A stretch of 64,000 nt of DNA, taken from positions 434,001 to 498,000 of the forward strand of contig JARFNK010000001.1 in NCBI GenBank assembly GCA_029167225.1, written 5' to 3'. Numbering within the stretch: position 1 is the stretch's first letter; each line of letters starts with the position of its first letter. Positions 27,174 to 62,926 of the stretch are shown here, one piece after another. This DNA comes from Sphingobium arseniciresistens. GTDB taxonomy: Bacteria > Pseudomonadota > Alphaproteobacteria > Sphingomonadales > Sphingomonadaceae. The notes beneath the pieces were generated by a model that was not told the DNA's origin, made no database searches, and was given only the letters and a program-made list of their open reading frames with translations. Made by a program: the position numbers and the translations under genes.

Positions 27174-27179
27174 CACATT

Positions 27180-30204: not shown

Positions 30205-30205
30205 G

Positions 30206-31608: not shown

Positions 31609-31615
31609 CGCCGCC

Positions 31616-34904: not shown

Positions 34905-34927
34905 ATGCGCCGTGCATATTGGCCCGT

Positions 34928-36400: not shown

Positions 36401-39400
36401 GTGGCGACGCGCCTAGCGATCGCACCCGCCATGCTCGGCTATCTTGTTCAGCATCGCCTGTTCGGTTGCTGCAAGATCGTCAGCATCGATGGCGGCCGGG
36501 TGGAAGTGCGACTTTGCGACAGCGGCGGTCGCCGCCTGTTCTCGTGCCAAGCTATTGTGGAGGGTGATTTCAAGCGCGCGACGCTTCACGCTGGCGCGCT
36601 CGCGATCGGGCCGCACGGCCAGTGCTCCATTGCCGGCCTCGCTGACAGCGATCCCAACGGGCCGAAGCATTATCGGATCACCTACGACGACGAATTGAGC
36701 GCGACCGTCAGCGAAATCGAGCTCCTACCTCTTCCGGCCAACCTGACCGACAGCCTTGCCACGCGTCTGCTGGAGGGCAGGACCGATCCCTATGCGGTCT
36801 TCGGCGCGCGTCACAAGCTGCTGGTCGCGCTTTCCCGCTACAATCGCCAAGTCGGCGGCTTGCGCGCATTGCTTGCCAGTCGGATCGACCTTCATCCTCA
36901 CCAAGCCTTCGTGGCGGGCACCGTTATTCTCGATCCGGTACGGCGCTACATCCTCGCCGACGAGGTCGGCCTTGGCAAAACGATCGAGGCCGGCATCATC
37001 CTCCACGATCTTCTGTCACGCCGACCAGATGCGCGCATCCTCATCCTCGCTCCGGGGCCACTAACTCGACAGTGGCTCTGCGAAATGCACAGCAGTTTCG
37101 GCGGCCAAGGCTTTAAGCTTGCGGACCTGCATCCGATCGAGACGATCGACCTGGCGCGCTGGTCGAAGGTCATTTGCTCGACCAACTATGCGCTGGACGG
37201 GCTCGACGAAGATCTGCTCGATACCCACTGGGACCTCGTCATCGTCGACGAAGTTCATCACCTGCTCGACGCACCCCACCTATACGATCTCGTCCACGCG
37301 CTGTCATTGAAGGCACGGGACCTCCTGCTGCTGAGCGCGGTTCCCGTGCGCCGCCGCGAAAGCGAACTCTACCGCCTGCTCGCTTTGCTCGATCCGCGGA
37401 CCTACTCCGCCGATGGTACCGGGGAGGCCGCGTTCCTTGATATCTACGCGGCGCAAGAGCCGCTCGGTCGGCGCCTCAACTTGCTCTCGCACGATCTGGC
37501 CGACCTCGACAGTGGCGACGCCACGTCCGACGACGTTATTGCGCGTCTCGACCGACTACTGTCGCTGCCTATTCTCGCTGAGGACACGCAACTCCGCGAC
37601 ATGCTTACCGCTGCCGAGGCCGCACCCGAGCGGGCCGGAACGATCGCTCGCGATGCCCATCAGATCATCTCCGATCGCTACCGGGTCAATCGGCGGATCC
37701 TGCGTAACCGACGCGAACGGCTCATCAGCCAGGAACGACTGACGGCAATCCAGCGCAGGCCGGCACCTTTGCCATTCGATCCCGACCAAATCGAAGCCGA
37801 CGCCGTGCGCGCTGCCCAGGCGCTCCTCGCCGACCTTGCGGCCTCGAACTCTGCGAGCGACGTCGTGCGACCATTCGCGCGGATCCTGCTTCAGGCGCTT
37901 TGCGACGCCGATGCGATCCTCGGCGTGTTCGGCGCTGTCCACTCGGCCACAGCGGCGACGGTTAATTCCTACGGCCTCGAAATGCTCAACGCCGTGGTCG
38001 GGCTCGGCGGCGAACGATGGCCGATCTTGCTTGAGACCGTCTGCGCGGGCGTGAAGGCGCATATCGATAGTGCTCTGCTCGCAGATGCGACGCGCTGCGC
38101 CATCAATTGGCGCAAATCTTCATCTTCGTCCGCCCGATTGGACAGAGTTGCGGAACTGTTGCGCACGGAGATCGCGGCGGGTCGCAAGACGCTCGTCTTC
38201 GCTGGCTTTCCCGGTGTCGCCGAGCGTCTCGCCATTGCTCTGCGCGAACGCCTTGGCGAGGCCGCCATCACCGAGTTTCGCAGCAGCATGGACGACATGG
38301 CCAAGGAGGAAAGCGTTCGTCGCTTCCGGGCCGTGCCGAGCGTTGCCGTCATGGTCAGCGACGAAAGCGGCGGCGAGGGACGCAACTTCCAGTTCGCGCA
38401 TAGCCTGATCCACTTCGATCTGCCGTGGCAGCCGGCAGTGATCGAACAGCGCATCGGCCGGCTGGATCGCCTGGGTCGCGAAGCCATCTCCTGCGAGGTA
38501 ATCTCTCACGTCTGCATCGACGCCGACGGCTGGGAGGCTGGCCTTTACGCTTGTTATAACGAAGGCCTCGACCTGTTCGGCACCTCGGTCAGCGGGCTCG
38601 AATTCGCGCTGAGACATCTGCAGGACCAGATCGTCGATGCGGCGCTTGCCGGCGGCCGCGACGATCTTGTCGATCTTGCACCCTCGCTCAAGGTGAGCGC
38701 CGCGGAGGAACGTGTCCGCGACGACAGCGAAGCACTGCTCGACGAAGCATCCTACCACGCCGTTCGCGCTGAGCGCTTTGTGCGACACCCGTCTGCGGAC
38801 GTCGAACCGCTTCTCGAAGGCGCCTTCCTCGACTATTTTCGCGCGCTCGCGGGCGGCAAGGGCGTCTCGCGTTATCGCCCCAACGACGGCAGTGACGGGG
38901 GCTGGAGCATTCGGCCGGATGATATCCCCCACGGCGAGATCACGATCGTCGACAAGGATGCGGCCGGCGAACTTGGCAAGCGCGTGGGCACCTTCCGCCG
39001 TACGGTCGCGCAGCGCCACCGCGACTTCGAATTTTTCACTTATGGCAATCCCCTGTTCGACGCGATCGTTGCGGCCCTGGGGCAGAAGTTGACCGGTCGC
39101 ACCTATGCCATCAGCTGCCAAGCCGCTGGCGTTGCGAGCTTTATTGGACTTGAGATCATCATCGCGGCCCGCCCTCGCCTCGAAGGCGTAGACATCTCCG
39201 CAAGCCTGCTCAATCTCGCAGATGCTTTGTTTGGAACCCGTCGCCGGCCGCTTTTCGTGCCCCTAGTAACGGGCGCGCCCGTCGATGGTCCGGCGCTGGG
39301 AACCCTGCGCGCCTCTTTGTCAACGAGTGGCGACGGTCCGCGCTGGCGCGACCTCAGCGGCGATGAAGTCCAGCATCTGGTTCGGCGGGAGGGTGGAGAT

Positions 39401-39652
39401 CTCGCAGAATGCCTTCGCATCGCAAATGAGGAGACCATTCCTGACGCCCGCGAGATCCTGGCCGGCGAACTCGCTGAACCGATCCACGCGGAACTGGAGC
39501 GCACACGTGTTCATCTGCGGCAACTCAAGCTGGTCGGTGACGCCGCCGCTGAGGCTGAAGCGCTTATGCTCGAGCGCTATTGCGCTCTCATCGAGCATTG
39601 GCAGATCGTCATCGACGGTATCGGCTTTCTCGCCGTGAATGTTCGGAATTGA
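36401..39652 (+). CDS. dpdE: DpdE: SNF2/RapA-like helicase of the 7-deazaguanine DNA restriction system
   Basis: 1083 residues. A Swi2/Snf2 ATPase: Walker A DEVGLGKTIEAG (about 186), DEVHHLL (about 281), and a C-terminal RecA domain ending in motif VI EQRIGRLDRLG (about 682). An N-terminal SH3-like region precedes the core, as in RapA. In the Dpd system (first described in Salmonella Montevideo), DpdE is one of the proteins needed for restriction of unmodified DNA but not for the modification itself. The start is GTG at 36401 with GAGAGG upstream. First gene of a tightly packed eight-gene operon; stop and next start nearly touch. Assignment is by family and by synteny with dpdF-K. Confidence 0.85.
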   Translation: MATRLAIAPAMLGYLVQHRLFGCCKIVSIDGGRVEVRLCDSGGRRLFSCQAIVEGDFKRATLHAGALAIGPHGQCSIAGLADSDPNGPKHYRITYDDELSATVSEIELLPLPANLTDSLATRLLEGRTDPYAVFGARHKLLVALSRYNRQVGGLRALLASRIDLHPHQAFVAGTVILDPVRRYILADEVGLGKTIEAGIILHDLLSRRPDARILILAPGPLTRQWLCEMHSSFGGQGFKLADLHPIETIDLARWSKVICSTNYALDGLDEDLLDTHWDLVIVDEVHHLLDAPHLYDLVHALSLKARDLLLLSAVPVRRRESELYRLLALLDPRTYSADGTGEAAFLDIYAAQEPLGRRLNLLSHDLADLDSGDATSDDVIARLDRLLSLPILAEDTQLRDMLTAAEAAPERAGTIARDAHQIISDRYRVNRRILRNRRERLISQERLTAIQRRPAPLPFDPDQIEADAVRAAQALLADLAASNSASDVVRPFARILLQALCDADAILGVFGAVHSATAATVNSYGLEMLNAVVGLGGERWPILLETVCAGVKAHIDSALLADATRCAINWRKSSSSSARLDRVAELLRTEIAAGRKTLVFAGFPGVAERLAIALRERLGEAAITEFRSSMDDMAKEESVRRFRAVPSVAVMVSDESGGEGRNFQFAHSLIHFDLPWQPAVIEQRIGRLDRLGREAISCEVISHVCIDADGWEAGLYACYNEGLDLFGTSVSGLEFALRHLQDQIVDAALAGGRDDLVDLAPSLKVSAAEERVRDDSEALLDEASYHAVRAERFVRHPSADVEPLLEGAFLDYFRALAGGKGVSRYRPNDGSDGGWSIRPDDIPHGEITIVDKDAAGELGKRVGTFRRTVAQRHRDFEFFTYGNPLFDAIVAALGQKLTGRTYAISCQAAGVASFIGLEIIIAARPRLEGVDISASLLNLADALFGTRRRPLFVPLVTGAPVDGPALGTLRASLSTSGDGPRWRDLSGDEVQHLVRREGGDLAECLRIANEETIPDAREILAGELAEPIHAELERTRVHLRQLKLVGDAAAEAEALMLERYCALIEHWQIVIDGIGFLAVNVRN

Positions 39653-39653
39653 G

Positions 39654-42101
39654 ATGGCGACCATGACACATTCCTCCCCGGGACCAACATTGGTCGATGC
39701 GTTTCGCGATGCCGTTCGCTCCGGCGTTGCCCCAGAAATCTTTCCGCAGGCGCCTTCTACCTGGCAGTCGGACTACGCGCTGTGGCGCTTCCTCACGCTG
39801 CTCAAACGATGCCCGACGCCGACCCTCGACCATGGCGTGCTACTTCGCCAAGCGGTCCGCTGGTCTGGAGATCGGCTCTTCGTCGGCAACTGGGAGACTG
39901 CGCTCGCCATCCAGGGCCGCGCGTGCGGTGTTGAACTCTCCGCGTCCGGAGACCTCGCCACTTCGGCCTATAAGCCTAGCTGGCTGGAAGACGAGGCCTG
40001 GAGTGCCGGCAAGGGGCTCGATGCAGCGCCCGAGATTGCGATCCCAGAGGAATCGTTACGTGCCGAACCTTGGCTTTGGTCGCTTGCCGACGGCAGCATG
40101 CGGCGTTGGCACTCGCCAGCCCAAAAAGAGGCCTGCTGGCAGGCGCTCACAGCACCACCCGGGTCGACGACACTGCTCGGGCTTCCGACCGGCGCCGGCA
40201 AAAGCCTAAGCTTCCAGCTTGCAGCCCGGTTCAGCGCGGGCGTCACGATCGTGGTCGTTCCAACCACCGCGCTCGCCATCGATCAGTATCTCGCGGCGCG
40301 TTCGATTCTCGCCAGCTTCCCGCATCTGGGGCCGCGCTACTATTCCTCGAACGACCCTAACAGCGACCCTGCCGCGGTCCGTGCCGCCCTGCGCGATGGC
40401 AGTTGCCGACTGCTGTTTACCTCGCCTGAGGCTTGCGTGTCCGGCAGTCTCCGCGCGGTCATCGACGGCCTCGCCGAAGCCGGGCGCCTCGACATGCTCG
40501 TCGTCGATGAAGCGCATATCATCGATAGTTGGGGCGGTCACTTTCGCGTCGAATTCCAACTGCTCGCCTTGCGCCGCAAGCAATGGCTCGAACTCAGCGG
40601 CGGCAAGCTGCGCACATTGCTGCTGTCCGCGACCTTCACGCCGAACTGCCTTGCGCTCTTGCAGACGATGTTCGGCGGGCCACTCTGGAGACAGTTTGCG
40701 TGCCAGCGCCTGCGGCCCGAAATCTCCTACTATCGCAACGGTTTCACGTTCGAAGCCGATCGTGACGCGGCATTGATCGAAGCGCTTCAGCACCTACCGC
40801 GCCCACTGATCCTCTATGTCACCGAAGTCGCACAAGCCGTGCGTTTCCGCGACACCCTTCGAGAAGCAGGCTTCCTACAGACCGAGTGCTTCCATGGTGA
40901 GACCAAGGGCGCCGACCGCCGCCGGCTGCTGCTAGACTGGCGCGAGAATCGGATCGAGATCATGGTAGCGACCTCCGCGTTCGGCATGGGGGTCGACAAG
41001 GCCGATGTCCGTGCGGTCGTTCACGCCTGTTATCCTGAAAATGTCCATCGTTACTATCAGGAAGTTGGCCGCGGCGGACGCGATGGCGCCAAGTCGATCG
41101 CGCTTTGGATGCCGTGGACGGTCAAGGATCGATCGGTCGCGTCGAGCCTCCTTCCGCGCATGCTCGGCGCCGACCTCATCAAGCTCAGATGGCAAACCCT
41201 ACTCGTCGCCGCACGTGACGAAGCGAACGGTGTGCTCAGCATGCCGACCAACGCCAAACACGAGCGGCTGATTGGTGGCCGCAGCTACGGAGAGAATATC
41301 CGATGGAACAAGCGCCTGCTGCTGATGATGGCGCGGGCCGGGCTCATTGAACTGGTCGACCTCGTCTATGAGGACGATGAGGATGAGCCCGAGGGCGTCC
41401 TTGAGCGGGTTTATCTGCGCTGTAACTTCATACCCGGCGACCCGGCGATCGCCGATCTGCTCAAGGAACCGCGGCAGCGCGAACTGGCTGAGTCGCGGCG
41501 CGGCATCGAGGCGCTTGACCATTATTTGGACGGATCGGCGAAGATCTGTCGACTGCTGCGCCGAGAATATGGTTCCGACACGATCATTGCCTGCGGCGGC
41601 TGCCCGGCATGCCGCGATCTGCCTTTCGACCGCTACTCGGTGCCGATACTCGACTTCGATCCGGCACCGCCGACCCAACCGGCTCTCGACATCGTCGTCA
41701 CTCAGGTCCACTCGTCCGGCACGAAAGGGCTTAGTCAACTCGCGGATGACGTGGTGGATCTGATCAGCGACCACCACCGCTCCTATTTCTTGTGCGCAAA
41801 CGATCTCGCAGACCCGATCACCGCCGCCATTGGCGCGCGGCTTCCGCCACAGAGCCGAAACCTCTATCGGCTGGATGACGCGAATACGCTTGCCCGCATC
41901 TGGATAGATCCGCGCGCTCACATCATTGCTCTCCACGGCCACACGCCCGACCGATCCATGCTGAGGCTGCGCGCAGGCGCGCGTATCTCGCACCTCTTCC
42001 CCAAGGATGCCCAAATCACGGATGCCAATGAGCGCGTGCTCCTCATGCACGATGGCGCTTCGTTCTTTCCTTCCTTTGCCGATTGGCGGACACAGATTTG
42101 A
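39654..42101 (+). CDS. dpdF: DpdF: RecQ-like DEAD-box helicase
   Basis: About 815 residues. Helicase motifs: LPTGAGKSLSFQL (about 177), VVDEAHIIDSWGGHFR (about 284, the RecQ-type DEAH with following aromatic loop) and YYQEVGRGGRDG (about 468). A zinc cluster CGGCPACRD lies at about 646. The order is RecQ-like but the C-terminal region is specific to Dpd proteins. It probably unwinds DNA during recognition or degradation of unmodified DNA. The start at 39654 has GGAATTGAG upstream; ATGs at 39639 and 39663 are alternatives. Confidence 0.88.
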   Translation: MATMTHSSPGPTLVDAFRDAVRSGVAPEIFPQAPSTWQSDYALWRFLTLLKRCPTPTLDHGVLLRQAVRWSGDRLFVGNWETALAIQGRACGVELSASGDLATSAYKPSWLEDEAWSAGKGLDAAPEIAIPEESLRAEPWLWSLADGSMRRWHSPAQKEACWQALTAPPGSTTLLGLPTGAGKSLSFQLAARFSAGVTIVVVPTTALAIDQYLAARSILASFPHLGPRYYSSNDPNSDPAAVRAALRDGSCRLLFTSPEACVSGSLRAVIDGLAEAGRLDMLVVDEAHIIDSWGGHFRVEFQLLALRRKQWLELSGGKLRTLLLSATFTPNCLALLQTMFGGPLWRQFACQRLRPEISYYRNGFTFEADRDAALIEALQHLPRPLILYVTEVAQAVRFRDTLREAGFLQTECFHGETKGADRRRLLLDWRENRIEIMVATSAFGMGVDKADVRAVVHACYPENVHRYYQEVGRGGRDGAKSIALWMPWTVKDRSVASSLLPRMLGADLIKLRWQTLLVAARDEANGVLSMPTNAKHERLIGGRSYGENIRWNKRLLLMMARAGLIELVDLVYEDDEDEPEGVLERVYLRCNFIPGDPAIADLLKEPRQRELAESRRGIEALDHYLDGSAKICRLLRREYGSDTIIACGGCPACRDLPFDRYSVPILDFDPAPPTQPALDIVVTQVHSSGTKGLSQLADDVVDLISDHHRSYFLCANDLADPITAAIGARLPPQSRNLYRLDDANTLARIWIDPRAHIIALHGHTPDRSMLRLRAGARISHLFPKDAQITDANERVLLMHDGASFFPSFADWRTQI

Positions 42102-42979
42102 TGTTTACTGATTCTGAAGCCACACCAGCCCGCGTCGAGATGTTGCTGGAAGTCGTCCGCTCGATGAGTGGCCGGAAGCTTGATGGTCCCACGGTCCGCC
42201 AGTTGCTGCAGCCCGAGGGACTGCCTGGCCTGACCAGCAAGAGCGAACAGGCCCGCAGCATAATGTTCGCCGCGCGCGAACTGGAGTTGATCGCCGAGCA
42301 GCCTGACGGAAATCTCCGGCCGACGCGCTCGCGTGACAACCGGAGCGCGCGCTCGGCACTGGTCGAAGCGATCGACGACAAGGTCTTGAGTGACGACAAG
42401 GTCGAGCCTTGGTTCGCCTTGTTCTACGCGTTCCTTCTTGGCCGGGATGAATCCGCCGCTGCCGGCCCCCAGGCGGGCATCCATTGGGAAACCCTGTTCG
42501 AGCGCGAGCTGTTCAGTGCGACCAAACCGGCCAACCGCTTCAACCCCGAGAAATATCGCGGGTTGCGTCGTTGGTTTCGCTACAGCGGCCTTGGGTGGCA
42601 TGACGGCGACGATCGCTTTCACCCCAATCCTTACGAGCGCATCGCCCGCAAGCTACCGACCATTTTCGGCAAGAACCGCGATCTCGCCATTGAGGCGTTT
42701 ATCGATAGCCTCTCCGAAATCTGTCCAGAGCTCGACGGAGGACACATCTTTCTGCGCGCCAATCCCGGTTGGGATCGTTCCAGCCGCACCGCTTCGCTGG
42801 GGCTCTCCCATGCGCTTGTCGACCTCCATCTCGATCGGTTGATTCAGCTTAACTGCCCGCTCGACAGTGATGGATGGTCGATCGCCAAAGCCGCTCCGCC
42901 GTTCGATCGCGACCATTTGAAGTCCGACCGCATCACGAGCGTGCGCTATCCCGTCCCCGGAGCGCGTGCCAATGGCTGA
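42101..42979 (+). CDS. dpdG: DpdG: Dpd-system protein of unknown function
   Basis: 292 residues. ATG overlaps the dpdF stop as TGATG. The N-terminal third looks like a winged helix (KLDGPTVRQLLQPEGLPGL; KSEQARSIMFAARELELI; then a basic wing). The rest is alpha/beta without a recognised active site. Named for its place between dpdF and the ATPase gene, the order known from the described dpd clusters. A DNA-reading adaptor role is my guess. Confidence 0.75.
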   Translation: MFTDSEATPARVEMLLEVVRSMSGRKLDGPTVRQLLQPEGLPGLTSKSEQARSIMFAARELELIAEQPDGNLRPTRSRDNRSARSALVEAIDDKVLSDDKVEPWFALFYAFLLGRDESAAAGPQAGIHWETLFERELFSATKPANRFNPEKYRGLRRWFRYSGLGWHDGDDRFHPNPYERIARKLPTIFGKNRDLAIEAFIDSLSEICPELDGGHIFLRANPGWDRSSRTASLGLSHALVDLHLDRLIQLNCPLDSDGWSIAKAAPPFDRDHLKSDRITSVRYPVPGARANG

Positions 42980-45900
42980 GCCGATCGCCGTCCCGCAAAC
43001 ACTCGGACAGCCATGCTGGACGGATGCCAATCTCGAAGCAACGATCCGGACGGTTGCGGCGATGGGCACCGAAAGTGCGCCGCGCTTTCTCGCGACGCAC
43101 GCCCCGATCTCCCATGTCCGTGTCGGTGACACCGACCGCACGCTCACCGATGCCAAGGTGTTCGACAGCATCGCCCGATTGAGTGCTCGGGAAAATGTCG
43201 TCCTCGTGCACGGCGCGCCAGGCACCGGCAAGTCCCATCTCATCAACTGGGTAAAGCTGCGCTACGATCACGCGATCGCGTCGGGGAAAATGACCGCTGT
43301 TCTGCCCGTTCTTGTGCGCCGCCGCACCGGCAGCCTCAAGGACGCGCTCGAGCAACTTGTCGAGCAACTCCCCCAGCGGTTCGGCAAATATCTCGAGCCC
43401 GTCCAGGCGGCCATCGAACGCATCTCAGAACGCGAAGCGCGAAAGAAGTTGGCGACCGAGTTGCATCTGGAGCTTGGCGTTCGCTGGGAGGAGGCCGGCA
43501 AGCCGCCGCTGCCGCGGACGATCCGCCACCTTCCTGAAGCATTTCACGCCGAAGGCTTTGGCGCTTGGCTTTGCCGCGAAGGCGGTGTGATCGACCGAAA
43601 CATCCAGCAGCTGATCAGCCCTAGCGACGTCCGTGAGCGCGATAGCTTTCCCCCCTTCACGGCCGCCGAATTCAACATCTTGGATCCGCAGCAACGCAGC
43701 GCTGGTCAAAACACCGCAAATGTCCGGCGCCTGATCGACGAGTTCGATGATGAGCCCGATTCCGCCGTCCAGGCGGCCGTGCTCTGCAACGAAGCGCTTC
43801 GTTCAGCGCTGCGCGAGCTGACGGGGCTCGGCAATGCGGCGCTCTCGACGATCCTTCGCTCGATCCGCCAGGATCTAAAAAAGGAAGGCACGCGCCTCGT
43901 TCTTTTGATCGAAGACGTATCGACGCTCTCCGTCCTTGACGATGAAGTGGTCAACGCGGTCGAACCCCAGGACGACGCAAGCCTCTGCGACCTGACGTCG
44001 GTCATCGGCATGACCGAGCAGGCATTCCAGCGGCTGCGCGACAATCAATATCAACGCATCGCCGGCAGCGGCCTCATCCTGTCCTTTCCAAAGGACGCGA
44101 TGGCCGCCGATTGGGCTGACGATGATGCCGACATCGATCGTTTTGTGGCGCGTTATTTGAACGCGACGCGCCTTTCCGATCGCGAAGTCGCGCTCATCGC
44201 CCAGCAACGTCAGCAGGGAAGCGATGTCAGTGTCAGCGCGTGCGACGATTGCCCCGTCCGCGAGGCCTGCCATCTGGCCTTCGGTACCGTCACCTTCGAG
44301 GATACCGTCATCGGGCTTTTCCCGTTCCGGCCGGGAACGACCGCCTATCTGCTCGACCATCTGGACGCGGGGCAAACGGGCGTTCGTGCGACCCAGCGCG
44401 GATTGCTCGACTTTGTGGCCAAGCCCGTGCTCCGCCATGTCGAGGGCCTGGCTGAAGGCGATCGTCACCAACTGACGCTTCCTATCCATCGACAGCAGCC
44501 GACCGACTGGCAGACGCTGGTCGAGACTTTCCTCGGCGGTTGGCCCGCCGTCGAGCAACAGAGGCTCCGCCTGCTCGTGGAGGCCTGGACATCCAAGAGA
44601 CGCGCGGCGGAAATTGCCAGCGACCTCCAACCACTGCTCGCGCCATTCGGCTTGTCGGCATTCAGTGCCAAAGCGGCACCCGCCAAACCGCTTCCGCCGG
44701 TTACAGGGGCGGCGAGCGGCGGTGCAGGCGACCCCGCTCGGAGCCATGGCACTCCGGGGCTGGAGGCGCCGCCTCCGTCCAGGACTGCTCCTGCTGTCGA
44801 TGCTGCGCAGGAGAAGAGGCTCACCGACCTTCTCAATCGGCTCGATCGCTGGTGGTTGGGAGATCGACTTGAAAACCCCCGCGATTTCCAGGACGCTTTG
44901 CTTGCATTTCTCAAAGGCGCGCTGCCCGTCGAGGACATCCGATCGCCTGCCGTCCCGGCACAGCGCCTGCTACGACAGGCCGATCGCGGCGCGATCCGCA
45001 TCGTCGATTCCGCGACCCAAGCGGTTCAGAACCGCGTGTCCTTCATCTTCGATCGCACCGAGGCAAACTATAATCTGATGGGAGCGCTGATGCGCTTCGT
45101 TGTCCTCGGCAGCGGGAGTTGGGCGTTTGCCGAAGCCGAACGCTACAAGCGCATTGTCGCACGGTGGCTACGAGACCATCAGGGTCCCATGCTCAAGGCG
45201 CTCGATCCGCCGTCTCTTGCCACCGATCTCCCGGTCAAGATTGCGACAAAATTCCTATGCATGGCCTCGATGATCGAACGACGCGCGGGCCTCCCGGCCG
45301 ATACACCGGCGGCGCTCGCCTATGTGACCACGACCTCGCCGATCAAGCTCCCGACGGTCCTGACCGAGCCGCTTCGGAAGCTCTATGCCGATCTGCCGGA
45401 TCGGCGTCAGATGCTGCAGACCTTCGTCGCCGAAGAAACGACCGTGCCGCAGGGCACCGGCGGCATCAACGTCATCGACCCGCAAGTGATCGTCGAAGCG
45501 ATCAGCGAGGCCCGCAGCGACCCCACGCTGACGACGCTCCCGCCAGACTATGCGTCGAGCTATTGGAAATCACGCTATCAGGCATTCGATGGCCTCAAGG
45601 GGTGGTCCAATCTTCCGGACGCGATCGCCGGCGAACGCGCTGCGATCGGCGAGTTGCTTGCAAAAGTCGATCGCGAGTTCGCGCGGCTGGGCTTTCCCAC
45701 GGGCGGCGACTATGCGGGCTGCATCGCCTTCTTCGTCGAGATGGGGCGGCTCATCGCTCTCCTGCGTGCCGAGTTTCGTTGGCCGGCTAACGATCTCGAC
45801 TTTTTCAAGCGCGAGCGCCTCGGCGACCGCAGCGAAGGCTTTGCCCGCATTCTGGCAGACGCTGCAGCGGTCGCTGAAGGCACTAAGGACAGCGACGTGT

Positions 45901-54934: not shown

Positions 54935-55976
54935 GACCGCTTTGCCTTGCTGAAACGGTGCCAGCCGGCGGCGTCGCGGCTTTCGGGTTCGGCATCTTGC
55001 CAACCTGCACCTTTGCAGGCCCAAGCGCTGGAACCGCAGCAGGCAGCGGCGCCGACACGGTTTCGATCCGGATGGGCTTGCCGGATGCCGAAACATCGAC
55101 ATGCAAGGGCGGATGGACGGCTTTCTTCGGGTCAACGGCGACCGCGATGAACGGCAAGAGGAAAAGCCACAAAAGCAGACATTTCAACGAGGCGGACAAC
55201 AGGCTCTGGGCAGGTTCGAGATAGCGAAGCTTGTCAGCTGTCTTGGCCGCCACGAGATAGGTCTCGCCGACGAGATCTCGGTAATAGGCCTGCACGATAT
55301 CATGGCGCGGCGTGGGATCGATCCCGCTTGCAGGCGTGCCGACGAACGTGCTGGCCCATGCCTTGGGCCGAATGCTGATGACACCGGAATAGAAGAGCCG
55401 GGAATTGGGATCGCCCGCCTCGCGGGCGGCCGATTCCTGCTTGGGATATTTGAAGCGGGTCCGGGTCGCGTGGAAGGTGACGAGCGCGCCCGCGAGCGCC
55501 GTCAGCAAAAACAGGCCGAAGACCGCATAGCCCAGCACGAGCAAACCAGTGGCCCAGCACGACCGATCCCACAAGGTTCCGAACGGATAGGTGTCGTTGA
55601 AGCGCGTGAACAGCGCCCCGGACAATGCGGTGAGGAAGGTCGTGACAGTCAGAAGGCGGGTGGCCTTCTGGTCCTGATATTCGGTTTGATCCTTGCTTTC
55701 GTCGAGCGACTGCCGAGCCAGCTTGATCGCCTCGTCAAGGTCATCGGCCTTGAGCTTAGCCCAATCCTGCGCAGCCTCGTTGAACTCCTTAACCATCGCC
55801 CTGGTGTCGAGCGAGATGATGGTGCCGGTAGCGTCCTTGACGCGGGGGTAGAAATCGAGGTCGCGCGACCGCAGGGCATGCCAGACAGCCACATACCAGG
55901 GCAACGCGGCCGGATTCTTGTCGGCCGAACCGTCGGTGGGAGGCGGCGGGGGCGATGGAAGTGTCGGAGCCATCAT
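54927..55976 (-). CDS. Membrane protein with 2TM plus 1TM layout inside the preQ0/dpdA operon
   Basis: 349 residues. A Pro-rich N-terminus precedes a soluble helical region with a coiled-coil ([20 protein letters not shown]). Transmembrane segments lie at about 107-124 and 142-168, and a third near 285-303, then a Pro/Ala-rich extracytoplasmic tail. The [20 protein letters not shown] entry to the first segment resembles SLATT/PycTM-type pore-forming effectors, but this is weak. ATG overlaps the queC stop (ATGATG/TGA), so translation is coupled. I know no such gene in the described Dpd core set. Confidence 0.75.
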
Positions 55977-56692
55977 GGCGCGACGGCCTCTTCCGGACCA
56001 CCAACGAAGGCATGAAATCCGCGCGCTCTGATCTCGCACGCCGGACAGCTGCCGCAGCCATAGCCCCAATCATGGCGGGCATCGCGTTCGCCCCGATAGC
56101 AGGTGTGGCTGTGTTCGACGATGAGATCGACCAGCGTTTCGCCGCCCAGATCGAGCGCCAGCGCCCAGGTCGCTGCCTTGTCCAGCCACATCAGCGGCGT
56201 GTGCAGGACGAAATTCTGCGCCATGCCGAGATTGAGTGCGACTTGCAGCGCCTTGATCGCATCGTCCCGGCAATCGGGGTAACCGGAGAAATCGGTCTCG
56301 CACATGCCCCCGACGACATGCTTGAGGCCGCGCCGATAGGCGAGCGTCGCCGCAAAAGTGAGGAACAGGATGTTCCGCCCGGGCACGAAGGTGTTCGGAA
56401 GTCCGTTCGCGTTCATCTCGATCGCGACATCGCGGGTCAGCGCCGTATCGGAGACCTCACCGAGCGTCGCCAACCCAAGGCTATGATCGGTGCCAAGGCG
56501 CCCCGCCCATTCCGGCTTGATCTCGCCGATGCGTTTCAGGATTTCATCGCGGCATTCGAGTTCGACCGCATGGCGCTGGCCATAATTGAACGCCAATGTC
56601 TCGACCGTGTCGAAACGATCGAGAGCCCAGGCGAGACACGTCGCCGAATCCTGTCCTCCGGAGAGGAGGACAAGTGCACCGGTTTCGTTCAT
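55973..56692 (-). CDS. queC: 7-cyano-7-deazaguanine (preQ0) synthase QueC
   Basis: 239 residues. Converts 7-carboxy-7-deazaguanine to preQ0 with ATP and ammonia. PP-loop SGGQDSATC (11-19), then [17 protein letters not shown], a substrate-binding [15 protein letters not shown], and the zinc-binding Cys set in HTCYRGER and [15 protein letters not shown] near the C-terminus. Everything expected is present at normal length. Overlaps queD by 4 bases. In this operon it feeds DpdA. Confidence 0.96.
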
Positions 56693-57066
56693 GCGTCGAC
56701 CTCTTCGGGGCCATAGTAGAAGCAGGCGTCGCCGCTGCTGTCCCGATAGACGGCGACACGCGAGAGATTGCCGATCGTCGGTGCGAGCTTGCGCCAGATC
56801 CAGGCGCAGAGATTCTCCATCGTCGCGGGGCCGAGATCGTTCATCTCATCGAGGAAGCGATGGTCCAGCGCTTCATGCGCTTCCTCGAGGGCGCGTTCGA
56901 GCAGGCCGAGATCGACGATCATGCCGGTGAAGGGATCAGGCCTGCCGCGCACGGTCACCTCGGCGCGATAGGAATGGCCGTGAATGCGCCGGCTCGATTC
57001 GGTCTCAATCACCCGATTGAGCGTGTGCGCAGCGTCGAACCGGAATTGCTTGGAAAGCTCAAACAT
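56689..57066 (-). CDS. queD: 6-carboxytetrahydropterin synthase QueD (divergent active site)
   Basis: 125 residues. PTPS/QueD fold. Zinc ligands are His14 in RFDAAHTL and His29/His31 in [17 protein letters not shown] gives the Asp-His pair, and [11 protein letters not shown] the pterin-binding Glu region. It normally turns dihydroneopterin triphosphate into 6-carboxytetrahydropterin. The catalytic Cys of E. coli QueD (KCGRLHGHS) is Ser25 here (SSRRIHGHS), and the late Glu of KETC is Arg/Asp (YRDS). ATG at 57066 overlaps the queE stop; the longer frame is not needed. Identity by fold and operon is firm, but the exact chemistry is less so. Confidence 0.9.
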
Positions 57067-57698
57067 CAGGCTATTCCAATCATCTTGTGGGTCTGGAGGC
57101 TGAGCCGCCAGGGCGGATTGGCAAGGCAATAAGCGATCGCTGCCTCAGTATTGGCCTCGCGCTCCGGCCCATCCATCGGCTGCAACCAGAAATACCGGAA
57201 ATTGAGGTGAGCGAAGCGCTCAGGGGGCGCGTCGGGCTGAGGATATACCAACTTGAGTTCGCTTCCGCAGGTCTGCGCGAGTGGCGCGGTCGACTTGGGA
57301 CTGACGCAGATCCAGTCGATCCCCGCGGGCGCCGCAAGCGTGCCGTTGGTTTCGACGGCGATGTCGAAACCTGCAGCGGCGACCGCGGCAACAAGATCAT
57401 CATCGAGTTGGAGCAGCGGCTCGCCGCCAGTGAACACGACTAGGCCGGGCCGCTTGTCGGACGACCAGGCCGCGACGATTGCGCCCGCCAATGCGTCGGC
57501 CGAGGCGAAGCGCCCGCCGCCAACACCGTTCATCCCGACGAAATCGGTGTCGCAGAACGCGCAAATCGCGGCTGCGCGATCAGCCTCGCGCCCGGACCAA
57601 AGATTGCAGCCCGAAAAGCGGCAGAAGACTGCGGCGCGACCGGTCTGGCCGCCTTCGCCCTGCAGCGTTTTGAACACTTCTTTGACCGCGTAGCTCAT
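57066..57698 (-). CDS. queE: 7-carboxy-7-deazaguanine synthase QueE (radical SAM)
   Basis: 210 residues. Radical SAM enzyme that contracts the pterin ring to 7-carboxy-7-deazaguanine. The 4Fe-4S cysteines are Cys31, Cys46 and Cys49 (GCNLWSG, then CAFCDTDF), the spaced C-x14-C-x2-C version known from some QueE proteins. TLQGEGGQTG (11-20) and FTGGEPLLQ are the SAM/substrate loops. Normal length. Abuts the DpdB-like gene by one shared base. Confidence 0.96.
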   Translation of the reverse strand: MSYAVKEVFKTLQGEGGQTGRAAVFCRFSGCNLWSGREADRAAAICAFCDTDFVGMNGVGGGRFASADALAGAIVAAWSSDKRPGLVVFTGGEPLLQLDDDLVAAVAAAGFDIAVETNGTLAAPAGIDWICVSPKSTAPLAQTCGSELKLVYPQPDAPPERFAHLNFRYFWLQPMDGPEREANTEAAIAYCLANPPWRLSLQTHKMIGIA

Positions 57699-58783
57699 CA
57701 GTACGCTGTTCCCGTTTCTAGCAGGGGCGCAGGAAGTGACACGCGCCGCCGGCGTTGATCGGCCTTCACGACACCAACGAGGTAGTGTTTTAGCAGGGCC
57801 ACATCACGGTTGACGTTTTGAAGCGAATTCCAGCGACGGACTTCGCCATCGAAGTTCCACTCACCCTCGGTCCAGGCGGTTCGGCCCTTCAGGCACTCGA
57901 GTCCGATCCGGAAGTCCTCAACGGTCCTTGCCTCTGCACGCTGCGCGAGCACTTCCATGACGTCGCCGACGGCCTGGATGCCCGCACCGTGGAGCAGGCG
58001 CGACGTGGCAGGTTTCTGACCATGCCACGCGTCGGGAAAGGTCTTTTTTACGCCGTCGAAAAAATTGGAGACGAGCCGAACGCAACGCTCGAGCCCTTTA
58101 GGGCCGCGGATTAACTCGCGCAGAACACCGTTCGTAAGCGACTCCATGATGACCTTCTGCATCACCGTGTCGGCGATCATGCCTTCCGGCGCGGTGTGTT
58201 GCTTAATGTATCCCTTGAGCGCCGTGTTTTCGAAGTTGAGGCGCGCGGTGATATCCGCGGCCGTCGATCGGCGGCTAAGACGCGGCGGTAGGTCGGTGAC
58301 CGTCGGGAGCAACTCGTAGATCAACGATTTCGGCAACGGCTTCGTGTTGTTGATCAGCACGAACTGGCGGCGAAGCTCCGCCTCATCGCGGCAGATGAGC
58401 GCCGAGACGAACACCTGAAAGTCGCGATCGACCTCGGCTAGCGCGGACAAACGCTGCTGGCCGTCAACCACCAGGCCGGGCGCCCCGTCGCTCATGTCCA
58501 CGCGAAGCCGGGCAATGCCGCTCTCGAGGTGATCGACGCGGACTCGATCGATGAAGGCGACGACGATTGGGTTCGGAAGCACCGCGTTTGGCTTTTCAAG
58601 GTAGTCGCGGATCTCGCGGATGTGGGCTGCCACCTGCGGCCGCTGAAATCCACTGAGTTCACCTTGGCTATCGCGGCCGATCCGATCGATCGTGGCAAAG
58701 CGCAGCACGTCGGCGGCGCGAGCCGCGAAGCTGAGCACAACGTGTTCATCGCTCTGCTGCGCACAGACTGCGTTGAAAATCAT
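57698..58783 (-). CDS. dpdB: DpdB-like DGQQR protein (first of two)
   Basis: About 361 residues. The DndB/DpdB family has a ParB-like N-terminal domain; the key VDGQQRLSAL motif (DGQHR family) is at about 108-118, preceded by GFQRPQVAAHIREIRDYLEK and followed by FVLINNTKPLP. DpdB helps DpdA exchange guanine for preQ0 in DNA and hydrolyses ATP. The C-terminal helical part ends WTEGEWNFDGEVRRWNSLQN, also found in the second copy. ATG at 58783 shortens the overlap with dpdA; a GTG at 58801 is possible. Confidence 0.88.
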   Translation of the reverse strand: MIFNAVCAQQSDEHVVLSFAARAADVLRFATIDRIGRDSQGELSGFQRPQVAAHIREIRDYLEKPNAVLPNPIVVAFIDRVRVDHLESGIARLRVDMSDGAPGLVVDGQQRLSALAEVDRDFQVFVSALICRDEAELRRQFVLINNTKPLPKSLIYELLPTVTDLPPRLSRRSTAADITARLNFENTALKGYIKQHTAPEGMIADTVMQKVIMESLTNGVLRELIRGPKGLERCVRLVSNFFDGVKKTFPDAWHGQKPATSRLLHGAGIQAVGDVMEVLAQRAEARTVEDFRIGLECLKGRTAWTEGEWNFDGEVRRWNSLQNVNRDVALLKHYLVGVVKADQRRRRVSLPAPLLETGTAY

Positions 58784-60077
58784 CGGGTCGTTTGACGGCA
58801 CGCTTTAAATCCAGTCGTTCGATATGGTCGTGATAAATCGCGAGATTGTGGATCCCGCGACGCTTATTGCGGTTACTCCCGCGAAAAATGATGACGTCGA
58901 TCGCCGCTTCGCGGCAAATTGCGCAACTGCACTCCTGCCAGGGCCGATCCTTCAGCGTTGTCCGATAGCGCTCCTCGAGCCGCGCCAGGGATACGCTGCC
59001 CGAGCAATCCTCATAGGGTCGCTCTTCGATCAAAGGCGCTGAATAGACCAGCACATGACGAAGCGCCTCTTCCAGGTCCGCTTCGCCGCGATCAAAGGCG
59101 CGAAGGGTGTTCAAGGCCAGCGCTTCCATGCGTAGGAGATCCTCAGCGCGAAAGGTTCCCTTCTTCACGCTCCGCTGCAGCTTCGGATTCTCAATCGCCT
59201 GAGGAACGCGGATCGAGGTGTAGTAGCGGAGCGTAAGGTCGTTGCCCGGGAGGTAGTAGTTCTGTTTTGCGTCCTTGAAGGCGCGAATAAGCGGCGAGGT
59301 CGTGTCGAAGCTGGCGATATCAAAGCTGTGAAAGCTGTCGATGTCATCGGCTTTCGCGAAGCCGAGAATGTGAAGTCGCGTCGACGCGGGCACCGCATCG
59401 CGGATCGCTTCCAGACAATGCTTTATCTCGGGTGACTTGAGCGGAACCATGCCGCCGACAGCAAGATAGTCGTACCCCATCGTGACCAATCGCCGCGCGG
59501 CTTCTGCCATGCTGCCGGGTGACCAACCTTGGATGACCCCGAGGGGCTTGAACAAGGCACCCATGCCAACCGCTTCACGACGAAAGCCGTCGGCATTTTC
59601 GAGTGTTATCTCAAAACGAGCGCGCGCGTCATCGCTGCCGCCTGCCATACCAGTCAGAGTCGGATCGAAATCGAAGATGATGTGGTCGACCGAACAGCCG
59701 TGCGTAAAGCCACACTCGTCGTAGAACTCAGCCATCTCCAGCGGCGAGTACGGAGGCCGCTCCTCCTGAACGTAGGTGAAAGCCCCACAGTCGCCAAAGA
59801 TGTCGAGATGGGCAAACTCGGGCTTATCGAGCCGGAGAAACTTCCGTACGCCGACCAGCCCAAAACGACGAGCCTGGCTTGCGGTATACTTCCCCTTCAC
59901 ACGGTGATCGCCGACGATCCCCCTCGAAACCAGGACACCGTCATATGGCGCGTAGCCCAGAATCTCGTGCGGGTAAGCATCGTCCCAATAAGGTTGACGC
60001 TCGGCCGGACTGCGGTCGCCAATGAAATCGAAAGCTGGGTCGACATAGTCGAGGCTGTCAGCGAAGATGAACTTCAT
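58746..60077 (-). CDS. dpdA: DpdA: DNA-guanine transglycosylase (TGT family)
   Basis: 443 residues. A TGT-like TIM barrel that swaps guanine in DNA for preQ0. The general-base Asp96 is in FGDCGAFTY (DSGGF in tRNA enzymes), and the nucleophile Asp258 in SFDTTSPLIRAF. The zinc site is Cys383, Cys385, Cys388 and His410 (ECSCAICRE...RRGIHN). The substrate-pocket segment YLAVGGMVPLKSPEIKH is typical of DpdA and not of tRNA TGT. ATG overlaps the second dpdB-like stop as ATGA. This gene defines the cluster as a 7-deazaguanine DNA modification system. Confidence 0.94.
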   Translation of the reverse strand: MKFIFADSLDYVDPAFDFIGDRSPAERQPYWDDAYPHEILGYAPYDGVLVSRGIVGDHRVKGKYTASQARRFGLVGVRKFLRLDKPEFAHLDIFGDCGAFTYVQEERPPYSPLEMAEFYDECGFTHGCSVDHIIFDFDPTLTGMAGGSDDARARFEITLENADGFRREAVGMGALFKPLGVIQGWSPGSMAEAARRLVTMGYDYLAVGGMVPLKSPEIKHCLEAIRDAVPASTRLHILGFAKADDIDSFHSFDIASFDTTSPLIRAFKDAKQNYYLPGNDLTLRYYTSIRVPQAIENPKLQRSVKKGTFRAEDLLRMEALALNTLRAFDRGEADLEEALRHVLVYSAPLIEERPYEDCSGSVSLARLEERYRTTLKDRPWQECSCAICREAAIDVIIFRGSNRNKRRGIHNLAIYHDHIERLDLKRAVKRPDDFQRSLCAAER

Positions 60078-61195
60078 GCGGCAACCCTCGCGAGGTCGCG
60101 CTCGATGTGCATCAAGTGGTCGCTGAGCTTGGTGATGTGCTGGGTGGTCGATTGGATCTCATTCCAGCGGAGGCCGAGACCGTCCCATGTGCCCTCCGTC
60201 CACCGGCAAAGCGGCGCAATGCGCTTCAGCATTGAACGCACCGCGGCAGCTTTGTCCGGCGCACCGTCGGCGCGCAGCATGATCGTATCCATCAACGCGC
60301 CCATTGCGCGGATCCCGGCCGAGTGCATGAGCCGGCTTTCAGTCGGCGGCTTCCCCCATGCGTTCGGAAAGACGTCCCGGACGGCGGACCAGTACAGCAC
60401 AAGCGCGTCGTACATGGCCTCGCTGTCATTGCCGTCGCCGTTGTGCTTGAATTGACCGAGCGCACCGGCAGGCGTCTTCAGGCTCACCTTCATGGTCTCG
60501 ATCAGCGCGCTATCGGTGACGATACCGACGCGATCCTTGGTATCGGACTCTCGCTTGATCAGTTTGTGAAAGGGCGATCGCGGATCATTGTTCAGCGCCT
60601 CACACAGCGTACTCGGGAGCTGCTTGGCCGCGAGGTTGCGAGGCAGGAGTACGTTCACTTCCGGCAGCAGTTCGTTGATGAGGCCGGTCGGCAGCTTTCG
60701 CGCCTTGTTTACCAGGATAAATTGCTCGCGCTGGGTCGCGAGTTCGTCGGATACGAAACCAATCACCGGAACCGCGATCGACCGATCCTTCGCCGTACTC
60801 AGCGCCAGCGACCGCTGCTGGCCGTCAACAATCCACGCCGCGCGGCGCCCCTCGGGATAGATTGGCACCGAGAGCGTGCCGGCATCGCCGACCTCGCACA
60901 TATTACCGGGAGAGCGGCCACGAGCCGAGGCGAACTCGACCTCGGGCGACATGGCGAGAATGATGGCATTGGGAAACAGCACCGGCCCGCTATCGAGGAA
61001 CGCGGTAATTTCTTTCACATGATCGCGGATCTCGCGTCGCTGAAAGCCCTTAAGCTCCTGCTCGTCACGCCGGATGCGGCTGATATCGGCGATGCGGCTG
61101 ATGTCGGCACCATAGAGGAAGAAGGCGTAGACGCCGATGCCGTTGCCCTGCTCGGCACGCACGGCGCGAACCTTGAGATATTCGCGCGCCGTCAT
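60074..61195 (-). CDS. Second DpdB-like DGQQR protein
   Basis: 373 residues. Same architecture as the protein at 57698: LKGFQRREIRDHVKEITAFL, WIVDGQQRSLALS (about 125-137), FILVNKARKLPTGLINELLP, and the C-terminal WTEGTWDGLGLRWNEIQS. The two paralogues differ in most other positions and in the N-terminus, which here has a hydrophobic strand (GIGVYAFFLYGADISRI). ATG at 61195 overlaps the upstream stop as ATGA. It sits on the other side of dpdA from the first copy. They may form a heteromer around DpdA. Confidence 0.87.
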   Translation of the reverse strand: MTAREYLKVRAVRAEQGNGIGVYAFFLYGADISRIADISRIRRDEQELKGFQRREIRDHVKEITAFLDSGPVLFPNAIILAMSPEVEFASARGRSPGNMCEVGDAGTLSVPIYPEGRRAAWIVDGQQRSLALSTAKDRSIAVPVIGFVSDELATQREQFILVNKARKLPTGLINELLPEVNVLLPRNLAAKQLPSTLCEALNNDPRSPFHKLIKRESDTKDRVGIVTDSALIETMKVSLKTPAGALGQFKHNGDGNDSEAMYDALVLYWSAVRDVFPNAWGKPPTESRLMHSAGIRAMGALMDTIMLRADGAPDKAAAVRSMLKRIAPLCRWTEGTWDGLGLRWNEIQSTTQHITKLSDHLMHIERDLARVAA

Positions 61196-62103
61196 GAACG
61201 TTCTCCGCGGACCTGCCGCGCGAGCGCCGCGAAGCGGGATTGCTCGCAAGCTACGCCAAGCTCGTCTCGGAAAAAGCGCAGCAGTTTGGACGAGCTTCCA
61301 TGCGCTGCGTCCCAGTGACGCCTAATCATCGAGAGGAGTTCCAAATCGTCGTGGCGAGCGCGATCAAATTTGGGTGGCATCCTCCAACCCGCGAGTGCTG
61401 CCTCAACGGCCTGCGCGTCGTCGGCGGCCGATCCCCCATGATCCAAGGCGACGAAGTGCCGAAGCGCACGCGAGGCGAAATCACTTCGCGTCCCCCGGAG
61501 GCCGCTGTCGGGACCATCGAGGCGATCATCATATGGCATGACAAGCGGGTGTAACGATTCCACTATCCGGTTGGCGGGGGTTCGAGTGAATATTCGGAGC
61601 CGGCTCAATACCGCTGGCGGCAGCGCGATCATCTCGTCAGCAATCATGGAGAGATATGCGTCGGACAGCGCGGCTAGGATCGGACCGTCATCGCCCGCGA
61701 CGAAGTCCGCCAGCGGGGCAGCAAATGGAGACGCGCTACGCAAAGCGTTCCACCATGCCTGAATATTGAATGAGTTGGTGACTCGGTCGGCAACACTGTC
61801 GCCCGCCCCGACCAACACCGTGCAGGCATAAGGCGGCACTTTGCAGCTGGCATCGACAAGTCCGAGCCCCGCCGAAACGACGAGCAAGCGACCTCCCATT
61901 TCTCGTGCCGCGGCGGCTGCCTCCTGAAAGGCGCGTCCGCCGTAGATAGCAGATGCGGGAAAGCGCTCGGACGCCGCCGACAGCCGCTCGCACCACGAGG
62001 TCGCAACAGCAAATAGTGGGGCGGCGCTGAGGTCGGAGATATGGAGGGCGCTAGAGATCGGCTTGCGTTTGCGATTCGTACAGGTCGTAATCACCAATGC
62101 CAT
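61192..62103 (-). CDS. YaaA/DUF6884-like protein, candidate DpdC
   Basis: 303 residues from ATG at 62103 (open frame extends to 62205). The N-terminal strand ALVITTCTNRKRK, then PLFAVATSWCERL, IYGGRAFQEAAAAAREMGG and LLVVSAGLGLVDA follow the pattern of YaaA/DUF328-DUF6884 proteins. In those a Cys/Ser-rich first loop and an LSAKxGL motif build the active site. DpdC, the enzyme that turns preQ0 in DNA into the amide (dADG), belongs to that broad group and is encoded near dpdA and dpdB. I propose this as the DpdC equivalent. The C-terminal third is unlike anything I recognise. Confidence 0.6.
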   Translation of the reverse strand: MALVITTCTNRKRKPISSALHISDLSAAPLFAVATSWCERLSAASERFPASAIYGGRAFQEAAAAAREMGGRLLVVSAGLGLVDASCKVPPYACTVLVGAGDSVADRVTNSFNIQAWWNALRSASPFAAPLADFVAGDDGPILAALSDAYLSMIADEMIALPPAVLSRLRIFTRTPANRIVESLHPLVMPYDDRLDGPDSGLRGTRSDFASRALRHFVALDHGGSAADDAQAVEAALAGWRMPPKFDRARHDDLELLSMIRRHWDAAHGSSSKLLRFFRDELGVACEQSRFAALARQVRGERS

Positions 62104-62305
62104 TAACGCGCCCCCATCGCCCGCCGTCACGAGCACATTTATTTCTATCAAGGCTTGATCAGAATAGCCATATAAATGCATCGGCAATCCACCGGTTCGG
62201 CGCATTAATGCCTCCGTCGGGACAAGTTGCAGGCTGATGCGAGGGTTGGAAGACGATGGCCCCCGTTGGTCGAGTCTAGCTCTTCACAGCGCTGCCCCCA
62301 TCAAC

Positions 62306-62926
62306 TCATGGCGCCCGGGATTGCCAGAGGAGAAGGTCGATCTTCTTCACGTCGCTCAGGCGGCGCAGGTCCGGGAGCGCGTTGTCAAAATCGGCGCGAA
62401 TACGCCGGTATCCCGCTTGCTCGATGATCCCGGCATAGGCGGCGGCAATGTGCGCGTAGTCTTCGCACAACCCCGGTATCCTCTGCGAAGCTGGGCCGGT
62501 TCGCGTCCTCAGCGCCATGTTTATCCGAACCCAGGAATCATAAACTGGCATGTTCGGATCGATCGTCGCGAGCAGCTTCGACGCGAACGAGGCTTCGACC
62601 CGGCCGGTTAAATCATGGAGAGCGGTTAGGACGTGCCTGAAGCTCTGCTCTCCGACCGTCTTTTGAATTTCAAACAGTTCGTAAAATGCGTTCCGCCAAG
62701 GGGCACCCCGTCTGACCATGTAGAGGCCGTTGAAGGTGCGCTGAAAGACCGCATCGGCCCGGACGTCGCATTGCCCGACCCGCGCCATTAAATATTGGTA
62801 GCGGTCCATGTCAGAACGTCGCGACTGCAGGCGACCAAGAATCGATGGCAAGCTGTTTGTAAGCAAGTCGAAGAGTCCAGCCTCTACCGCATCCACCATC
62901 GCTGCACTCGCCTTTGACCCGGTCAC
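62306..62926 (-). CDS. Unknown protein with DNA-glycosylase-like (HhH-GPD) motif, head of the operon
   Basis: 206 residues, helical throughout. ASKLLATIDPNMPVYDSWVR (about 112-131) resembles the HhH-GPD signature in which Lys and Asp, about 15 residues apart, form the glycosylase active site (K...PVDTHV in OGG1). The flanking helices fit but no [4Fe-4S] Cys set is present. It precedes the DUF6884-like gene by about 200 bases on the same strand, so it is probably the first gene of the dpdA operon. The start is GTG at 62926 or ATG at 62899. Function is inferred only. Confidence 0.6.
   Translation of the reverse strand: MTGSKASAAMVDAVEAGLFDLLTNSLPSILGRLQSRRSDMDRYQYLMARVGQCDVRADAVFQRTFNGLYMVRRGAPWRNAFYELFEIQKTVGEQSFRHVLTALHDLTGRVEASFASKLLATIDPNMPVYDSWVRINMALRTRTGPASQRIPGLCEDYAHIAAAYAGIIEQAGYRRIRADFDNALPDLRRLSDVKKIDLLLWQSRAP

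Follow-up and report, generated by a model that had tools for sequence, protein, structure and literature searches.

Dpd systems place 7-deazaguanine in DNA as a mark and restrict DNA that does not carry it. We analyzed a Dpd cluster in a 64,000-nucleotide stretch of Sphingobium arseniciresistens DNA (contig JARFNK010000001.1, C1 below, positions 434,001 to 498,000; this whole stretch is the window), which belongs to an assembly of 120 contigs with a contamination value of 6.02. Among the described systems, the Dpd cluster of E. coli GE3 follows a tRNA-Leu gene and an integrase and has the order dpdC-A-B-E-F-G-H-I-J-K-D, its first coding sequence being unnamed there and assigned here to DpdC; a dpdC-A-B stretch of this type was matched in 161 of 5,426 complete E. 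coli genomes. The window shares with it dpdC, dpdA, dpdB, the order of the restriction genes, and the adjoining tRNA-Leu and integrase, whereas the E. coli cluster has one dpdB, co-directional operons, only queD nearby in the stretch read, and no counterpart of a gene pair that we call MEM and HAD. Compared to an Enterobacter copy of the E. coli type, the window proteins are 41% (DpdA) and 34% (DpdF) identical. Other Alphaproteobacteria (among them Sinorhizobium, Agrobacterium, Caulobacter, Novosphingobium, and Sphingomonas) mostly have the order dpdC-dpdB-dpdA-dpdB-queE-queD-queC, as in the window, and MEM is found in 11 other alphaproteobacterial loci, one copy being cut. In the sets used for this comparison, which include a few loci from other groups, identity to the window reaches 89% for DpdA and is at most 46% for DpdF (20 loci) and at most 35% for DpdJ (15 loci). 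The archaeal BRIGADE system, as described in PMC12458937, likewise joins 7-deazaguanine genes to a YprA helicase, the family of the dpdJ helicase, and typically to a PLD nuclease, but it is placed there in halophilic archaea only and usually has two YprA helicases, compared to the one Dpd-type DpdJ of the window. Dnd phosphorothioation shares with the window the DGQHR/DndB family (PF14072) and the mark-and-restrict logic; apart from the DndB-like pair, family searches of the window matched no Dnd genes.

The reading that we favor, with a probability of roughly 85%, is that the window carries an entire Dpd system for restriction and modification, in a paired-DpdB form typical of Alphaproteobacteria, lodged in the traG-relaxase gap of a 78-kb integrative and conjugative element (ICE) at tRNA-Leu(CAG), in which the two DpdBs would be two fixed subunits and MEM-HAD would be part of the marking operon. 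Protein family matches placed the complete cluster at 36.4-62.2 kb, in two convergent operons with the restriction genes on the + strand and the modification genes on the - strand. Families were assigned with PADLOC, Pfam, and NCBIfam/TIGR profiles and their curated cut-offs; the matches were strong for DpdA, B, C, D, E, F, H, J, and K and for QueE, QueD, and QueC, moderate for DpdG, and weak for DpdI. The + operon runs dpdE-F-G-H-I-J-K-D, with all frames overlapping or abutting. In transcription order the - operon runs dpdC, an upstream dpdB (dpdB-u), dpdA, a downstream dpdB (dpdB-d), queE, queD, queC, MEM, and HAD, and by our reading of the translations the likely starts give an overlap at 8 of 8 junctions. 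The genes are as follows.

36401..39652, + strand: dpdE, SNF2-type helicase (PADLOC DpdE 1806 bits; Pfam SNF2 and Helicase_C; GLGKT, DEVH).
39639..42101, + strand: dpdF, DEAD-box helicase (PADLOC DpdF 937 bits; Pfam DEAD/Helicase_C; GAGKS, DEAH).
42083..42979, + strand: dpdG, assigned mainly by position (NF041064 60.6 bits, cut-off 80; PADLOC E 5.5e-7).
42966..46094, + strand: dpdH, AAA-type ATPase (PADLOC DpdH 1705 bits; GAPGTGKS).
46091..46774, + strand: dpdI, assigned by position (NF041066 26.5 bits, cut-off 150; no PADLOC match).
46775..51340, + strand: dpdJ, large helicase (PADLOC DpdJ 1332 bits; ASTGAGKT, DEVH).
51337..51885, + strand: dpdK, PLD-family nuclease (PADLOC DpdK 354 bits; HxK and GSMN aligned with 10 others).
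51867..53969, + strand: dpdD, final gene of the restriction operon (PADLOC DpdD 916 bits).
54152..55135, - strand, likely start 54934: HAD phosphatase, final gene of the modification operon (Pfam Hydrolase 3.8e-16; DADNTLWD, GDQ..RD).
54927..56069, - strand, likely start 55976, overlapping the queC stop: MEM, putative Dpd-associated membrane protein (hydrophobic helices).
55973..56692, - strand: queC, preQ0 synthase (TIGR00364 202 bits, above cut-off; PF06508 232 bits).
56689..57129, - strand, likely start 57066: queD (PF01242 107 bits, above the Pfam cut-off; TIGR03367 78 bits, below its cut-off of 89).
57066..57698, - strand: queE, Cx14CxxC radical SAM type (TIGR04508 341 bits, above cut-off).
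57698..58801, - strand, likely start 58783: dpdB-d, downstream DpdB (PADLOC DpdB 410 bits; DGQQR; groups with downstream copies in the tree).
58746..60077, - strand: dpdA, DNA-guanine transglycosylase (NF041059 548 bits, above cut-off; PADLOC 546 bits; match to structure 7UI4).
60074..61249, - strand, likely start 61195: dpdB-u, upstream DpdB (PADLOC DpdB 447 bits; DGQQR; in the upstream clade, 100/99).
61192..62205, - strand: dpdC, predicted to convert dPreQ0 to dADG (PADLOC DpdC 365 bits; Pfam DUF6884, below cut-off).
62306..62926, - strand: 206-amino-acid helical protein 5' of dpdC, perhaps outside the system (relatives beside dpd; DUF6308-like).

A preliminary description of this DNA had proposed a complete Dpd-type cluster in two convergent operons; the coordinates and the profile search, which puts the genes in Dpd families, bear this out. 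Its inventory held for queE, queD, queC, dpdA, dpdB, dpdE, dpdF, dpdH, dpdJ, dpdK, and dpdD, with dpdG and dpdI assigned mainly by position, and overlooked dpdC, the second dpdB, and the MEM/HAD pair, while of its limits the left one (36401) stood and the right one (62926) took in the unassigned 206-amino-acid gene, the dpd genes ending at 62205. The arrangement, with dpdD last, had also been described as different from the Salmonella Montevideo cluster. That it is unusual was rejected: the restriction order, dpdD last included, is that of E. coli GE3, and convergent operons recur in Enterobacter pPOL9A, A. vitis, and loci L027, L030, and L082. What does differ, or is added, is the overlooked dpdC, the second dpdB, and the MEM/HAD pair.

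DpdA was further identified by its match to 7UI4 (E 2.3e-88), the structure of the S. Montevideo DpdA according to PMC12137116. Aligned with the E. coli, Enterobacter, Sinorhizobium, and Paenibacillus copies, it conserves D96 (GDCGAF), D258 (SFDTTSP), C383, C385, C388, and H410 (residue numbers are our own count). We take D96 and D258 to be the catalytic residues and C383, C385, C388, and H410 to be the zinc site, in line with the initial view of DpdA as a tRNA-guanine transglycosylase (TGT) with Asp residues and a zinc site. A scan with motif patterns showed a P-loop in DpdE, DpdF, DpdH, and DpdJ, together with a DE-box in all of these but DpdH. The set for preQ0 supply is present by profile matches, QueD scoring below the equivalog cut-off: QueD, QueE, and QueC in the operon and FolE in the host, outside the cluster on contig C33 (234 bits). 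The genome has another queC at C1:250061, which points to queuosine being made by a pathway of its own. The steps of Dpd marking have been reported for relatives and would apply here by family membership: FolE, QueD, QueE, and QueC would supply preQ0, DpdA with the help of DpdB would exchange guanine in DNA for preQ0, DpdC would convert 2'-deoxy-preQ0 (dPreQ0) to its amide form dADG, a role described in PMC11888242 and PMC12839542, and DpdE to DpdK with DpdD would restrict unmarked DNA. Since dpdC is present, the expected final mark is dADG, not dPreQ0 alone.

The pairing of DpdB was assessed in 54 sampled loci, several of which are near-copies of one another; besides the window they comprise an initial 6 plasmid regions, 24 loci from genome contigs, 8 from genomes of the family, and 15 additional named regions. 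dpdA was present in 51, and in 41 it is flanked by a dpdB on either side. Without the six loci of E. coli, Enterobacter, Paenibacillus, and cyanobacteria this becomes 41 of 45, a set that includes locus L081, filed as phage but nearly identical to a Sphingomonas locus. No dpdB accompanies dpdA in Paenibacillus L074 or in the three cyanobacterial loci. In a tree of 68 non-redundant DpdB sequences (22 near-identical ones of 90, and a 111-amino-acid fragment from L026, were dropped), the 31 upstream copies formed one clade (100/99), and the 31 alphaproteobacterial downstream copies came together outside it with lower support (94/78). The upstream/downstream label changed once on this tree compared to about 21 times in shuffles, with no copy on the wrong side, and DGQQR was kept in every member of both groups (31/31 each). 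Upstream and downstream copies of the same locus have a mean identity of 34.0% (30 loci), both track DpdA (Spearman 0.90 for the upstream and 0.95 for the downstream copy; 30 loci), and NG86 dN/dS was 0.04-0.06 in 3 of 6 upstream pairs and 0.04-0.10 in 5 of 6 downstream pairs, the others being saturated. From these sequence comparisons we conclude that both copies are ancient, differ from each other, and are in use. They would be non-redundant, two fixed subunits that most likely form one heteromeric ATPase acting with DpdA. A lineage that keeps two DpdB groups at fixed places allows a direct genetic test of the DpdB role.

Several observations weigh against this reading. In the cluster itself, DpdG and DpdI stand at the right place in the order with scores below the curated cut-offs. 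Among the 41 paired loci, L026 retains only the 111-amino-acid remnant as its upstream dpdB. Outside these 41, L029 and its near-copy L073 have the upstream dpdB only, and the dpdA of L029 is shortened at its 3' end; Acetobacter L007 and M. extorquens L076 have no dpdB beside dpdA. Possession of two copies is thus not universal. dS exceeded 1 in nearly all pairs, which makes dN/dS rough, and the tree program flagged long branches at the deep forks of the DpdB tree. In E. coli and Enterobacter a single dpdB lies downstream of dpdA, and DndB, as described in PMC4507180, is a homodimeric transcription regulator that has a DGQHR motif and binds its own promoter.

The last two points favor an alternative in which DpdA is served by the downstream DpdB only, while the upstream DpdB binds DNA and regulates the operon, the part that DndB plays in phosphorothioation. 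It also gains from several residues common to single-copy and downstream DpdBs (for example K at column 181 and D at column 393) that the upstream clade keeps less strictly or exchanges for others. However, in this column count, made after removal of near-copies and two distant DpdB-like sequences, the differences were spread, some single-copy residues surviving only downstream and others only upstream, and many other single-copy columns agreed with the upstream clade. The tree pointed to the same side, the single Enterobacter DpdB and two actinobacterial orphans adjoining the upstream clade (97/93) on long branches; the mean identity of the Enterobacter protein is 40.9% to downstream and 37.8% to upstream copies, and since tree side and identity disagree, the root of the DpdB tree is unsure. 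The upstream gene moreover sits within the operon, flanked by dpdC and dpdA, keeps DGQQR throughout, and tracks DpdA. We consider the regulator unlikely and retain the two-subunit reading.

MEM was found in 12 of 54 loci and HAD in 11 of 54, and in 11 of 54 the MEM-HAD pair ends the operon. HAD accompanies MEM in all 11 loci that have HAD; the twelfth MEM locus, L028, has a cut MEM near a contig end. In these 12 loci the genes lie 3' of queC, directly or at a short distance, and in Sinorhizobium and A. vitis a VUT/YhhQ transporter stands between queC and MEM/HAD. MEM matched in 4 of 72,556 plasmid records, all 4 being dpd loci, and in 3 of 397 genomes of the family, all 3 among the 9 with DpdA (chance 8e-6). 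The pair co-occurs with differing restriction genes, which ties it to the marking side. The HAD proteins keep what we presume to be the motifs of an active phosphatase, and MEM is probably a membrane protein, to judge from its hydrophobic helices. Family and fold searches gave no name for MEM: its structure model was poor (predicted local distance difference test score, pLDDT, 60.5), with no PDB match at E 0.001, and when identity as a known pore or Pycsar effector was considered, PycTM was touched by only 1 of 9 members, at E 0.04. It is about as doubtful as the regulator that MEM and HAD are mere passengers and not Dpd parts. Most dpd loci do have no MEM, no family or fold names it, and in one family genome it lies about 20 kb away from dpdA; against this stand its exclusive occurrence with dpd in the plasmid records and family genomes, its close position 3' of queC, and the overlapping frames in the window. 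The pair thus appears to belong to the marking operon, where, with low confidence, it could control or salvage preQ0 in a step linked to the membrane, or act as a sensor.

Two further explanations of the paired DpdBs fared less well. The copies could be used alternatively, each lending the writer a sequence specificity of its own, and their 34.0% within-locus identity leaves room for different DNA contacts, with both looking constrained; a complex better accounts for their fixed order and joint retention, and we regard this explanation as improbable. Least probable by far is an ordinary Dpd island with a neutrally duplicated dpdB, for although dpdB is the gene with most extra copies in dpd islands (801, in a section of the preprint PMC11888242 that does not give their positions), each non-redundant alphaproteobacterial copy falls on the side of the tree that its position predicts, and both copies look constrained, unlike a neutral copy. 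No description of the paired DpdB order, and no Dpd scheme with MEM-HAD, was found in the literature searched, which did not take in the main Dpd papers. While the Dpd system itself is established, its paired DpdB and its association with MEM-HAD merit a bench test, and MEM-HAD is a testable candidate Dpd part.

To compare the two arms of the system, we measured how the genes track DpdA across non-redundant loci. The Spearman coefficient was 0.89 for DpdC (34 loci), 0.44 for DpdJ (16 loci), and 0.28 for DpdF (21 loci), where some DpdF assignments may be wrong because helicase families cross-match. When only pairs of loci sharing 78% or more identity in DpdA were considered, identity fell below 45% in 70 of 92 pairs for DpdF and in 9 of 16 for DpdJ, compared to 17 of 145 for DpdC. 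Among the pairs listed, DpdF identity was highest at 94% (L012 and L011, with DpdA at 94%) and lowest at 39% (L012 and L013, with DpdA at 87%), some values lying near 65%. The restriction arm of the window is without a close relative in the sets compared, and its DpdE matched 420 plasmid records, none over more than 80% of the query and all at less than 60% identity. These results indicate that the restriction genes, judged by their sequences, vary independently of the marking module. Our interpretation is that restriction arms have been exchanged; alternatively, this arm may diverge faster. A constant marking module with varying restriction cassettes suggests that the attack arm can change without loss of self-recognition. 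More tentatively, and at somewhat less than even odds, the alphaproteobacterial writer could be heteromeric, consisting of DpdA, two obligatory ancient DpdB paralogues, and a Dpd-specific MEM/phosphatase, with restriction cassettes swapped freely because the mark is constant.

The mobile setting of the cluster was read from the following features, window coordinates being given.

17014..17031 (C1:451014-451031): attL-like 18-bp repeat TGGTGCCCAGAAGAGGAC, left ICE end.
22160..33640, - strand: trb-type type IV secretion system genes and traG (TrbI, VirB8, CagE_TrbE_VirB, and T4SS-DNA_transf on four frames).
31616-33640: traG.
Right end of the window: relaxase, a 662-amino-acid frame extending beyond the window, the full gene lying in the ICE.

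The element measures 78,230 bp and is bounded by 18-bp direct repeats, its ends being read at the occupied site. TGGTGCCCAGAAGAGGAC is paired with the 3' end of tRNA-Leu(CAG), which lies beyond the window at C1:529226-529243; the tRNA gene (C1:529226-529312) adjoins an integrase with Arm-binding, central, and catalytic domains. The chance that an 18-bp tRNA end recurs in the stretch is about 2e-5, and the 22-base form with at most 2 mismatches was found only at the tRNA. No exact flanking repeats of at least 20 bp were found between the stretches compared, and it was by starting from the tRNA end that the 18-bp repeat was detected. The ICE also holds the trb genes, traG, the full relaxase, and ParB-like and ArdC-like proteins. 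The proposal that the Dpd block is ICE cargo between traG and the relaxase was upheld by the tRNA-side integrase, the repeat ends, the secretion genes, traG, and the relaxase, which support the cluster as probable cargo in this gap. A plasmid of Sphingomonas paeninsulae whose trb genes are related has different defense-like genes, RES and NTase-HEPN, between traG and the relaxase; in the window this gap is filled by NTase-HEPN, a Fic protein, and Dpd. A DpdE-like match was found in 15 of 24 genomes and was tied to the dpd contig in 13; by our reading, TraG lies within about 45 kb on the same contig in 8 of these 13, of which 3 are near-copies. The ICE would be a route of spread for the Dpd system.

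Other genes and repeats were noted on or near the element. The NTase-HEPN protein (window 33800-34741) and the Fic protein (window 34919-36115; PADLOC SoFic 415 bits) lie between traG and dpdE and are candidates for further defense cargo. An ArdC-type anti-restriction protein (L032:8779-9816, C1:505779-506816) could shield the ICE on entering a new host. A 1104-amino-acid ResIII/DEAD helicase (window 18167-21481) lies just inside the left ICE end. Just left of the attL-like repeat is a second integrase (window 15346-16869), and a 16-bp partial repeat starts at window 17119, 105 bp to the right of the attL-like repeat, as in stacked islands. At the other edge of the cluster, the 206-amino-acid protein has relatives in 7 of 25 dpd genomes, beside dpd in 6 of these 7 and in variable orientation; DUF6308 matched in 4 of 5 members (best 4.5e-6), and its structure model is good and all-helical (pLDDT 83.6). 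A guess from a motif that it is a helix-hairpin-helix DNA glycosylase was not supported, the best PDB match having E 0.49.

In a class-wide search, DpdA exceeded the cut-off in 1 of 385 genomes, this one; 76 others had matches at E ≤0.001 below the cut-off and are probably ordinary TGTs. Within the family, DpdA was found in 9 of 397 genomes. On a Variovorax plasmid (L088), a dpdB lies beside a DUF6884 (DpdC-like) gene and adjoins a CRISPR locus of type I-E; the 25 kb read there contained no dpdA. According to PMC7472734, Sphingomonas phage vB_StuS_MMDA13 has its own dpdA, folE, queD, queC, and queE, a gene set indicating that phages of this host group can carry related marks. L081 (MT835580.1), filed as 'Bacteriophage sp.' from human feces, carries a dpd cluster whose DpdBs are more than 97% identical to those of Sphingomonas parapaucimobilis; the record is probably a contig from a bacterium or a mobile element that was filed wrongly.

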